Shown: in pieces, positions 33,135 to 35,998 of the stretch
Layout: each line of letters opens with the position of its first letter
Numbering within the stretch: position 1 is the stretch's first letter
NCBI RefSeq assembly: GCF_024437655.1
Contig: NZ_JANBVF010000016.1
Location: 1 to 64,000, forward strand
DNA length: 64,000 nucleotides
From: Chitinolyticbacter albus
GTDB lineage: Bacteria > Pseudomonadota > Gammaproteobacteria > Burkholderiales > Chitinibacteraceae
Direction: 5' to 3'
Translations under genes and position numbers: made by a program
The notes under the pieces: generated by a model
Databases searched by the model: none
What the model was told of the DNA's origin: nothing
The model's input: the letters and a program-made list of their open reading frames with translations, nothing else

Positions 33135-34052
33135 ATGAACTGGCCACCCATGACCCCCTTCGAACGTATCCAACGCGCCATCGACTTCATCGAAGCTCAC
33201 TTGCGGGAAAAGATGAGCATGGCCACCATCGCGGCACCGACCAATTACTCGGCTTTCCATTTCCAACGTCTGTTTCGCGCGATCTCCGGATTTTCGGTTC
33301 AATCCTACATACGTCAGCGTCGCCTCACCGAAGCGGCGCGCATGCTGGCCAACCCACAAACCACCATCCTGGATGCTGCCGTCGCCTATGGCTATTGCTC
33401 GCACGAAGCCTTCACCCGGGCATTCGAAGCCTGCTTCGCCGTACCCCCTTCCGAATACCGTAAACAGCGCAACAAACCCGCCGGACAACGCAAACTGGAT
33501 CTGTGCACCGGCGCGCCCTTTCGCGACGGCGTCGGTGGCAAGGCGCCAGACATCCGTTTTCTGGAAACCCGCACCGTCATCGGCAAGGTCTATCGCACCC
33601 ACCTGGAAAGCGGGAATTTCTATGCCGACATCGGTGGCTTCTATCGGGATTTTGGCGAAAGCGGCAGCTATCTAAATATTCCCGACAGGGCGCAGCCGGG
33701 CCTGTGTCATGGTGTTTCCTGCCATTACCAGGACGATGGCCAGTTCGATTTCGTGATCGGCGAAAAAGTGATCCAGCCGGCAACCGCATTGCCGGAAGGC
33801 TTTACCGCGGTCAGCCTGCCAGCAGGCTGGTATGCAGAATTCGATGCGTCCGGCCCGATCGATACGGTTCCTCGAATCCGGGACTATATCTATGGCATCT
33901 GGCTCCCCAATAGCCGCTATGAACGCACCGACGGCCCGGATTTCGAAGTAACCGATGTCCCAGCCTCATGCTTTCCCGACGACCTGCGCATCAAGGTCTA
34001 CATTCCTCTTCGAGAGGAAACCGTGCACCAGGCGCCCAGCCCACGCCTTTGA
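33135..34052 (+). CDS. AraC-family regulator with GyrI-like effector domain (first copy)
   Basis: A 305-aa regulator. Residues about 10-110 are the AraC DNA-binding domain with two helix-turn-helices (MATIAAPTNYSAFHFQRLFR and ILDAAVAYGYCSHEAFTRAF). Residues about 140-300 are a GyrI-like/BmrR-type ligand-binding domain (VIGKVYRTHLESGNFYADI ... LPAGWYAEFDASGPIDTVPRIRDYIYG). Two ATGs five codons apart are possible and neither has a good Shine-Dalgarno sequence. The gene lies just before a second regulator of the same design in the same direction, 239 bp apart. Its codon use is less GC-biased than that of its neighbours, which may indicate later acquisition. Confidence 0.88.
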   Translation: MNWPPMTPFERIQRAIDFIEAHLREKMSMATIAAPTNYSAFHFQRLFRAISGFSVQSYIRQRRLTEAARMLANPQTTILDAAVAYGYCSHEAFTRAFEACFAVPPSEYRKQRNKPAGQRKLDLCTGAPFRDGVGGKAPDIRFLETRTVIGKVYRTHLESGNFYADIGGFYRDFGESGSYLNIPDRAQPGLCHGVSCHYQDDGQFDFVIGEKVIQPATALPEGFTAVSLPAGWYAEFDASGPIDTVPRIRDYIYGIWLPNSRYERTDGPDFEVTDVPASCFPDDLRIKVYIPLREETVHQAPSPRL

Positions 34053-34291
34053 GTCAAGCGTGTTGCAAGCACACCCTTTGACGCACACTCCTGCGGATCA
34101 TCAAGATTCAATCTTCCAGCGCTTGAGGTCACCCCTAGGGTCCGCTATCGAGGCAACAGGGTTCCACACTCGGGAAGCGGCGCAATGATGCGAGCAAGTT
34201 GGCTGGCGACTCGCACCATGCGGTTCAACGCGGCCAAAAGCGCAAATGCGATCAATCCGGCCCGGCTAGCATCCGGGTCGAGGAGCACAGC

Positions 34292-35131
34292 ATGAAACCT
34301 GACACCCTGGCCCGTTACACCGAGCGTATCTGCAAGGTGCTCGACTACCTGTACGCGCATAGCGACAGCGAGCCCGATCTTTATACGCTGGCCGATGTGG
34401 CCTGCCTGTCGCCGTATCACTTTCATCGCGTGTACCGCGGGCTGATGGGCGAAACGCTGGGGGACACGCTGAAGGAAATTCGCCTGCGCAAGGCGGCGGG
34501 CGAGCTGGCGCGCACTCGTGTGCCGCTCAGCCGCATCGCCGAGCGCGCGGGTTTCGGCTCCTTGCCGGCGTTCAGTCGGGCTTTCCAGCAGCGTTACGGC
34601 GCATCGCCCGGGCGTTACCGCGCGATCCGCGCGCTGCCTTTCCCCTATGCAGAGGAGCAGGACATGTACCCCATCGAGATCACCGAAGAATCCGGCACCC
34701 CCCTGGTCGGGTTGGCCCACCACGGGGACTATCACCAGATCGGTCTCGCCTTCAATAAGCTGTTCCTGCACGCCGGCAACGCGGGCTGGATGCAGCCCAT
34801 GCCGCGCTGCATCGGCCTGTTCTACGACGACCCCAACCAGGTACCCGAGGAGAAGCTACGCTCGCACGCTGCCATCGGCATCGCCGCCGTGCCCGATCCC
34901 TTGCCGACGCCATTCGAGGGCCTGGCCATCCCCGCCGGCAGAACTGCGACGCTGCGCTATACCGGCCCTTACTCCGATCTGCCCGAAGCCTATGCCTGGC
35001 TGTTCGGCCACTGGCTGCCGCAAAGCGGGGAGGAACCGCGCGATTTTCCGGCCTACGAGGAGTACATGAACGACCCCAAGACCACGCCGCCGGCCGAGCT
35101 TCTCACGCTGATCCATCTGCCGCTCGTTTGA
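34292..35131 (+). CDS. AraC-family regulator with GyrI-like effector domain (second copy)
   Basis: A 279-aa regulator of the same architecture: AraC helix-turn-helix domain in residues about 8-110 (YTLADVACLSPYHFHRVYRG and LSRIAERAGFGSLPAFSRAF) and a GyrI-like effector domain from about 120 (MYPIEITEESGTPLVGLAHH ... PAGRTATLRYTGPYSDLPEAYAWL). It is clearly diverged from the first copy, so this is an old duplication or an independent acquisition. AGGAG sits seven bases before the chosen ATG. Proteins of this class bind cationic amphiphiles or drugs; no efflux gene is adjacent. The start of a longer reading is discounted. Confidence 0.92.
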   Translation: MKPDTLARYTERICKVLDYLYAHSDSEPDLYTLADVACLSPYHFHRVYRGLMGETLGDTLKEIRLRKAAGELARTRVPLSRIAERAGFGSLPAFSRAFQQRYGASPGRYRAIRALPFPYAEEQDMYPIEITEESGTPLVGLAHHGDYHQIGLAFNKLFLHAGNAGWMQPMPRCIGLFYDDPNQVPEEKLRSHAAIGIAAVPDPLPTPFEGLAIPAGRTATLRYTGPYSDLPEAYAWLFGHWLPQSGEEPRDFPAYEEYMNDPKTTPPAELLTLIHLPLV

Positions 35132-35155
35132 GAAACGCCGACGTGCGGCAGGCGT

Positions 35156-35185
35156 AAAAAAGAGCAAAGGGGCATAACGCCCCTT
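35156..35185 (-). terminator. Minus-strand terminator of the 47-aa gene
   Basis: Read on the minus strand: AAGGGGC-GTTAT-GCCCCTT, then GCTCTTTTTT. It lies 33 bp after the stop of the small gene and marks the end of its transcript. Confidence 0.82.
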
Positions 35186-35218
35186 CGCCCTTACGGATTA
35201 GGTCTCAGGTTCCGGTAG

Positions 35219-35362
35219 CTACCGATACGGTTCGGCGACTTCGAGGGCAAGATTCCTCGTATCGTCGTGGTCGAGATTGGTAGGGGTTTTGAAGGCCCGG
35301 AACAAGTTCATCAACGCATCGTTGACCGTACTCGCTAAGCCTTCCAGGAAGTCGAATCGCAT
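35219..35362 (-). CDS. Small protein of 47 aa, unknown function
   Basis: An ATG with an excellent Shine-Dalgarno sequence (AACAAGGAG, six bases upstream) opens 47 codons. The sequence begins MRFDFLEGLASTVNDALMNL, continues FRAFKTPTNLDHDDTRNLAL and ends EVAEPYR. The N-terminal ~25 residues can form an amphipathic helix (Phe/Leu on one face); the C-terminal half is acidic and polar. There is no membrane segment or signal peptide. A rho-independent terminator follows 33 bp downstream, and a ~190-base structured leader with a plausible promoter lies upstream. Together these make a complete one-gene transcription unit, even though the gene falls below usual length cut-offs. I do not recognise the protein. 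Confidence 0.72.
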   Translation of the reverse strand: MRFDFLEGLASTVNDALMNLFRAFKTPTNLDHDDTRNLALEVAEPYR

Positions 35363-35557
35363 TGCGATCTCCTTGTTTCGAAGGTTTCACTAACTACGTC
35401 GCAGATTTTGCTGACAGGTGTCGCCCCCACCGGGAAACCGGATCGGGCAACTCGTTGCCGGAGTGTCGTCTCCGACCGCGCGGACAGCCTGTGGGGCTGC
35501 CGGCCTGTTAACACAACCGAACGTCCGCCACGACCAGATTGTCGTGATGGCACTGTC
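35363..35557 (-). other. Structured leader region of the 47-aa gene
   Basis: About 190 bases between a candidate promoter and the small gene. The region is rich in self-complementary segments: CCGG-TTTC-CCGG (GAAA tetraloop if read on the plus strand), GGCAA-CGAG-TTGCC, and a CAGCC/GGCTG stem near 35495. It does not match any riboswitch or common RNA I can recall (not c-di-GMP, TPP, cobalamin, SRP, 6S or tmRNA by eye). It could be a regulatory leader or an independent small RNA. Confidence 0.4.
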
Positions 35558-35587
35558 AATTTAGCAGCCACTAATACACAGCGTCAA
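35558..35587 (-). promoter_or_regulatory. Candidate promoter of the 47-aa gene
   Basis: On the minus strand TTGACG (35582-35587) is followed after 18 bp by TAAATT (35558-35563), five and four of six consensus matches. Transcription would start near 35551, giving a leader of about 190 bases. Confidence 0.4.
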
Positions 35588-35611
35588 ACACCGTATGTCG
35601 TCAATATGAAC

Positions 35612-35637
35612 AAAAACAGCCACTTATGTGGCTGTTT
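35612..35637 (-). terminator. Terminator of the ArsR-family gene
   Basis: Read on the minus strand: AAACAGCCAC-ATAA-GTGGCTGTTTTTG, a perfect 10-bp stem followed by T5. It lies 22 bp after the ArsR stop. Confidence 0.88.
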
Positions 35638-35659
35638 GGGGCTCGTAGTGGCTTTGCGC

Positions 35660-35998
35660 CTACTTGGAAAAGGCACAGAACACGTCGCGCAGCATGGCGA
35701 TCACTTCCAGCGTGCGGGTATCGCCAACGCGGTAATAGACGCGGTTGGCGTCCTTGCGGGTGCGCAGCACGCCCTTTTCGCGCATCAGCGCCAGATGCTG
35801 CGAAATGTTCGATTGCGTGGTGCCAACCTGCTCCACGATGTCCTGCACGCTGACCTCGTGCTCGCCCAGTACGCAGAGGATCTTCAGTCGCAACGGGTGC
35901 GACATGGCCTTCATCGCGCGCGACGCCTGCTGGATGTGCTCGTCGCTCATCAATTCGGTGGGGGGAAGCATCATCCTCTGCACTTTTTGGCCGTCCAT
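35660..35998 (-). CDS. ArsR/SmtB-family transcriptional regulator
   Basis: A 112-aa winged-helix repressor. The core RAMKAMSHPLRLKILCVLGEHEVSVQDIV, followed by the recognition helix TTQSNISQHLALMREKGVL and the wing RKDANRVYYRVGD, is canonical. Cysteines are at positions near 42 (ILCVL) and 108 (VFCAF). The classical ELCVCDL metal motif is absent (the spot reads EVSVQDI), so it is probably not an arsenite sensor of the ArsR type; a redox or other signal is possible. Two further ATGs lie eight codons in, so the start is uncertain. It is divergent from gpmI with ~135 bp between them. Confidence 0.92.
   Translation of the reverse strand: MDGQKVQRMMLPPTELMSDEHIQQASRAMKAMSHPLRLKILCVLGEHEVSVQDIVEQVGTTQSNISQHLALMREKGVLRTRKDANRVYYRVGDTRTLEVIAMLRDVFCAFSK

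Follow-up and report, generated by a model that had tools for sequence, protein, structure and literature searches.

Positions 35587 to 35156 of the minus strand of the window (the whole 64,000-nucleotide stretch analysed here) were described in an earlier note as a complete transcription unit for an unrecognised 47-amino-acid protein with a long structured leader. When the sequence was re-read, the promoter, the ~190-nt leader, the Shine-Dalgarno sequence, the 47 codons and the terminator were each found on the minus strand at the positions given for them, and the analysis below confirms the observation of such a unit. The features discussed are the following.

35612 to 35626, minus strand: conserved upstream element TAAGTGGCTGTTTTT, a candidate activator site 48–51 nt 5′ of the -10 element
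35558 to 35587, minus strand: whole sigma-70-type promoter, from the promoter scan and the aligned loci
35587 to 35582, minus strand: -35 element TTGACG (promoter scan), followed on the same strand by an 18 nt spacer
35563 to 35558, minus strand: TG-extended -10 element TAAATT (promoter scan)
About 35551, minus strand: putative transcript start and 5′ end of the leader
35525 to 35551, minus strand: P1, the 5′-terminal hairpin of the leader, with at least 6 pairs in 16 of 16 loci
35394 to 35524, minus strand: conserved leader domain, made up of a closing helix, an ACAGG/CCUGU helix and hairpins P2, P3 and P4 (from folds and covariation)
35358 to 35398, minus strand: proposed alternative hairpin CGUA:UGCG, GUGA:UCGC, CCUU:AAGG, from energies of truncated RNA and unsupported at full length
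35369 to 35374, minus strand: Shine-Dalgarno sequence AAGGAG, of which GGAG is unchanged across 16 aligned loci
35219 to 35362, minus strand: 47-codon reading frame plus stop, MRFDFLEGLASTVNDALMNLFRAFKTPTNLDHDDTRNLALEVAEPYR (ATG at 35362, stop at 35221–35219)
35291 to 35344, minus strand: putative coding hairpin of 22 pairs, codons 7–24, from invariance and from stability against recodings
35156 to 35190, minus strand: rho-independent terminator (stem 35185–35167, T-run ending at 35156)

Promoter, terminator and upstream element

The earlier note held that five such elements in order are unlikely by chance. The scan counts make only a modest case for this, since a 701-base scan contains one promoter-like site where 0.3 are expected and three terminator-like sites where 0.7 are expected; it is because the unit is conserved in relatives that it is far more than chance. 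The -10 element is visible in alignments of 16 loci and is preceded by TG in 15 of them, and a -35 of the TTGAC type is found in the 11 loci outside the genus Chitinibacter; the five loci of that genus have no clear -35. A GC-rich hairpin 3′ of the stop codon is likewise visible in alignments of the 16 loci, and the terminator stem carries compensated changes among relatives.

The promoter start that had been proposed is present, but the conserved unit probably begins further upstream, with the element at 35626–35612. At its fixed distance TAAGTGGCTGTTTTT matches at 13–15 of 15 positions in eight of the 16 loci and at 9–11 of 15 in three more, and it was not found there in the five Chitinibacter-genus loci (best matches elsewhere, 8–10 of 15). 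Near-copies of it in eight genomes fall elsewhere in five of 13 places, compared with 10 places for a reversed control, which is the control level. In the window the same letters also form the 3′ arm of a terminator-like hairpin (35612–35637) behind the upstream ArsR-type gene. By eye, the element is likewise half of a terminator-like hairpin in the nearest relative, and several relatives retain it without the other hairpin arm. TAAGTGGCTGTTTTT may bind a dedicated activator, and transcription is probably also under control through this element.

A conserved 47-residue protein

Absence of the frame from close relatives was the observation named earlier as speaking against the gene; the frame, its start and its stop are intact in 17 of 17 sequences (the window included), all of the same length and with no indels. 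The ratio pN/pS over all pairs is 0.23, and the comparison of synonymous and nonsynonymous change that had been suggested gives, for seven disjoint species pairs, 43 synonymous differences on 212 sites but 21 nonsynonymous ones on 754 sites (p about 1e-14). Because synonymous changes so far outnumber amino-acid changes, the frame must be translated, and these sequence comparisons show the 47-residue protein to be the product of a real gene under purifying selection. Both ends of the protein are conserved, since its longer relatives read MAIxF[ML]EGLxSTVND...EPFR.

The protein remains unrecognised, as first described. It has no match in Pfam (cold-shock domain included) or in PHROGs and no significant match in NCBIfam (best E 0.17, in one of 15 members) or in PDB (best E 0.76). 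AlphaFold predicts a helix at residues 2–25 and a weaker one at 32–42 with low overall confidence (pLDDT 68.9, pTM 0.36), and a search of PDB with the predicted structure gave no matches at E up to 10. The helix at 2–25 is amphipathic (moment 0.52–0.53), a hydrophobic membrane span is absent (19-residue Kyte-Doolittle mean 0.73 at most), and the tail is acidic and conserved. The product is thus predicted to be an amphipathic helix with an acidic tail, the helix being modelled.

Distribution and neighbourhood

When 61 genomes, among them the window's own, were searched with the DNA, 20 gave matches. These are the window's own genome, 16 others with 72–92% DNA identity over most of the unit (in one of them split into two pieces), two (L018 and L019) with only a 47-nt match inside the gene, and L020, of a genus without the gene, whose 30-nt match lies inside a long unrelated frame (a glycosyltransferase by eye) and was set aside as chance. 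With a protein profile, 19 of 43 Chitinibacteraceae genomes match. Seventeen, again counting the window's own, have the 47-residue form, the named records among them being of Chitiniphilus, Andreprevotia, Chitinibacter, Chitinilyticum and Amantichitinum; the other two (one metagenome-assembled genome called Formivibrio and one genome called only Proteobacteria bacterium, here the Formivibrio-type pair) have a 52-residue form. The profile search found no protein in the other 24 genomes, 23 of which make up four genera without any match. Among 399 genomes of the order, 18 match at E up to 0.1. Nine of these are of the same family, one (G232, E 5e-8) is a clear homologue in another family, where one of five genomes has the gene, and eight are weak matches (E 0.008–0.1) that were dropped as chance, all of them covering the profile only in part; five of the eight lie in frames of at least 200 residues, two contain a stop and one is in a 34-residue frame. 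At class level, only the window's own genome matched among 369. No relatives were found in phages (query, the 52-residue form), in plasmids (query, the window protein) or in viral contigs (query, alignment A4), and the window's genome has a single copy.

Neighbouring genes were re-checked one by one with tblastn in 19 loci; the window genes are named by Pfam, and those of the relatives bear the names that we presume from their sequences. A divergent gene that we take to encode an ATPase lies directly upstream in eight of the 19 loci (three Andreprevotia, Chitinilyticum aquatile, Amantichitinum, the two Formivibrio-type genomes and the genome from outside the family), and in five of those eight it is followed further out by a presumed Nudix-type gene. 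Four loci (L002, L010 and both Chitiniphilus records) and the window have an ArsR-type gene upstream. Downstream there is an AraC/GyrI-type regulator in seven loci and in the window, a presumed histidine-kinase-type gene in six loci, all of the genus Chitinibacter, and a presumed GGDEF-type gene in two. Since the neighbours vary between genera the unit is autonomous; the gene is inherited, with one old neighbourhood common to two families, and yet it is autonomous.

Two further observations concern the surroundings. In the window, two adjacent AraC-type regulators with GyrI-like effector domains (33138–35128, plus strand), both also matching Cass2 in Pfam, converge on the unit, and in seven of 19 other loci the unit is flanked by a relative of one of the two. 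In another family of the order, L053:1489-1641 holds a leaderless homologue that uses different synonymous codons and lies beside the ATPase gene and the Nudix-type gene, an arrangement that is possibly ancestral.

The leader RNA

Sixteen leaders were aligned; that of L021, in which an insertion separates leader from gene, was omitted from the alignment and is still found by the leader model R1. The leader had been called stem-rich, and it is indeed structured, but it is better described as one defined fold, a 5′ hairpin followed by a closed domain with three hairpins. The P1 hairpins are very different in sequence among the 16 loci, the domain varies in length from 108 to 148 nt, and its architecture appears in 16 of 16 single-sequence minimum-energy folds. 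The search for covariation that had been proposed found it: 95% of 581 alignment cells are paired, against 33–44% when the partners are slid by one to three columns, and 10 pairs, including all seven pairs of P4, have changes on both sides. None of 500 shuffles of the leader reaches the covariation score or the percentage paired; the count of double-sided pairs is reached by seven and that of pair types by 12. On the other side, the alignment of P2 is poor, with 75% paired, and little covariation comes from the outer and ACAGG helices, which hardly vary. By its covariation, then, the leader is shown at the level of the alignment to be a functional RNA structure, and a conserved, covarying structure directly 5′ of a gene is what defines a structured cis-regulatory RNA.

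Model R1, run with stricter filters and 79 candidates scored per genome, finds exactly one leader per genome in 17 of the 43 family genomes, the same 17 that have the 47-residue form, always by its coordinates just upstream of the gene. In the order it finds nine of 399 genomes, all Chitinibacteraceae, with eight candidates scored per genome, so that weak relatives could be missed. At the two Formivibrio-type loci and at the locus of the homologue outside the family it finds no leader, even at E 10. Rfam has no match in the window at the curated gathering score; sub-threshold matches to P31, SCARNA18 and STnc350 between 35100 and 35700 (E 0.095–0.54, two of them on the other strand) were rejected as chance.

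The P3 loop ACGACA is invariant, as is a GUUGU toward the domain's 5′ side, and by eye the two could form a pseudoknot; because both are invariant, covariation between them is impossible. In Chitinibacter sp. GC72 an insertion of ~258 bp (L026:2720-2977) lies between the leader and the Shine-Dalgarno sequence; by eye it has terminal inverted repeats CAGGGTCTGTTGG...CCAACAGACCCT, and it is predicted to fold as one giant hairpin. As read from its sequence, this insertion appears to be a natural uncoupling of leader from gene.

A second constraint inside the coding sequence

Codons 7–17 are identical in nucleotide sequence in 17 of 17 genomes, the rare codons TTA and AGT included. TTA occurs seven times, as 0.3% of leucines, in 44 window frames chosen by length and third-position GC, and the gene's own TTA is kept by all 17. 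In the same species synonymous divergence is 0.565 in codons 26–47 and 0.13 in codons 2–25; two of 200,000 random choices of codon positions are as invariant as codons 7–23, and four of 20,000 shuffles have any window as invariant. Because codons 7–17 are identical in all 17, rare TTA included, the coding RNA must be under a second constraint, and these comparisons of sequence show a constraint on the nucleotides of those codons.

The cause of that constraint is probably the hairpin of codons 7–24, which in each of the 17 genomes is more stable than 95–100% of 300 synonymous recodings. For the relatives with longer proteins, three in number, the fractions of recodings at least as stable are 0.15, 0.017 and 0.093, and their folds are unlike that of the window. 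One compensated pair (C-G to G-C) sets the Formivibrio-type sequences apart from the rest. An antisense promoter was also considered as the cause, but a sigma-70-type scan of the opposite strand gave no promoter-like site in 35050–35750.

These results bear on the reading that the RNA structure of the coding region is a by-product of codon preference or recent descent and that the leader is a 5′ region without a switch that binds a protein or senses temperature. The coding hairpin is indeed one inherited event in 17 genomes, and in its covariation controls 77 of 500 shuffles reach two pairs and 432 of 500 the number of pair types. However, recent descent fails to explain the steep difference in synonymous divergence within the gene, and the rare codons argue against codon preference, so this reading seems improbable.

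What the leader may do

The earlier note suggested riboswitch-like control or a dual-function RNA, and the constraint inside the coding sequence is compatible with both. The reading that we favor is that of a stand-alone small-protein gene in a chitin-degrading bacterium, whose leader controls translation of its own gene; we hold it to be evenly poised between right and wrong. The gene would be monocistronic and the leader a cis-acting control element of that one gene. Folding of the domain would be set by a ligand, by a protein (possibly the gene's own product) or by temperature, and would determine if the region of the start codon and Shine-Dalgarno sequence becomes paired with the strand directly behind the domain. 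ACGUA, the strand that ends the outer helix of the domain, could instead pair with UGCG at the start codon, and GUGA:UCGC and CCUU:AAGG would close over the Shine-Dalgarno sequence. The hairpin of codons 7–24, in the same RNA, would probably tune early translation or bind a partner.

In RNA that runs from the domain to codon 6, two exclusive folds lie within 1.5 kcal/mol of one another in 13 of 16 species, and in the remaining three the closed domain is favored by 2.3–4.8 kcal/mol. Such near-equal exclusive folds in the modelled, truncated RNA would have the anatomy of a translational switch, although with the domain closed a different small hairpin often takes up the start codon region, which is thus not simply open. 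At full length, 5′ hairpin and complete coding sequence included, the calculated ensemble gives the sequestering pair a probability of 0.09 or less in 16 of 16 and the closing helix of the domain a value below 0.5 in 13 of 16. The Shine-Dalgarno sequence is mostly paired in all 16 (unpaired fraction 0.04–0.45), and removal of the leader shifts its accessibility by no more than 0.15. Covariation lends no support to the sequestering pairs, since they hardly vary. Folding during transcription, which these calculations ignore, may favor the domain. In one sequence the closed domain is preferred by 3.5 kcal/mol at 10 °C and by 0.5 kcal/mol at 42 °C, a drop that is uninformative on a temperature switch. 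Metabolite riboswitches usually control several genes, and this leader has one. The leaderless homologues, in the two Formivibrio-type genomes and in the genome outside the family, also count against the favored reading.

The main rival is a dual-function RNA, a transcript that codes for the small protein and, in trans, serves as a regulatory RNA or scaffold, with the invariant codons 7–17 and the invariant leader loops as contact sites for targets or proteins. The unit is self-contained, keeping a promoter and terminator of its own as the neighbourhood changes, the leader is accompanied by the gene in 17 of 17 genomes, and the frame, judged by its substitutions, encodes a translated small protein, as this reading would have it; the identity of codons 7–17 with their rare TTA and AGT, matched by so few shuffles, fits it as well. 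Against it, the leader lies directly 5′ of the Shine-Dalgarno sequence, the usual place for control in cis, and selection clearly acts on the protein itself. We regard a dual-function RNA as possible, if on the unlikely side. A bolder proposal would join the leader, the start region and codons 7–24 into one RNA machine acting in cis and in trans, its 3′ half carrying the protein under two codes at once. It would be a dual-code RNA of a new class, derived within one bacterial family from an older small-protein gene that had no leader; this we consider doubtful. That the transcript is a type I toxin-antitoxin mRNA, its small membrane-acting toxin silenced by the structured leader and an antisense RNA, is very improbable, since the short amphipathic product, the long folded leader and the mostly paired Shine-Dalgarno sequence, which would suit it, are outweighed by the absence of a membrane span, the acidic conserved tail, the lack of any promoter-like site in a sigma-70-type scan of the opposite strand in the interval given above, and a single genomic copy with no plasmid, phage or viral-contig relative found.

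Comparison with known systems

The unit adds a family of small proteins that none of the searched libraries contains and a covarying leader without an Rfam family, the two being tied one-to-one. Gain or loss of the leader can be studied directly in the leaderless relatives (two Formivibrio-type genomes and one of another family), and codons 7–17, where protein code and RNA constraint coincide, are a clean test case of dual coding.

Type I toxin mRNAs such as tisB have a small product, a long structured leader and a poorly accessible ribosome site. The unit described here resembles them in all three, but differs in having no membrane span, no antisense promoter seen and a single chromosomal copy. 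In cspA-type thermosensing leaders a long folded leader with alternative folds precedes a small protein, much as here, but the protein of this unit has no Pfam cold-shock domain and its leader has no Rfam match at gathering score.

The literature searched, at the level of its abstracts, contains nothing recognised as this unit. Among dual-function bacterial RNAs, SgrS/SgrT (PMC4021124) and VcdRP of Vibrio cholerae (PMC8672173) are reported to be likewise small transcripts that encode a small protein and have conserved RNA parts; they differ from the present unit, which has a multibranched conserved leader, a nucleotide constraint that overlaps the coding region and no known base-pairing target. 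Orphan riboswitch candidates (PMC7266159, PMC6429828) share with it a covarying RNA directly 5′ of the Shine-Dalgarno sequence, and the exclusive alternative pairing proposed here could likewise hide that site; here, unlike there, one gene and one family are involved, there is no ligand, and the alternative fold is unsupported at full length. Structured leaders on small-protein genes and dual-function RNAs are known kinds of unit, and what sets this unit apart is that its dual constraint is unusually strong.
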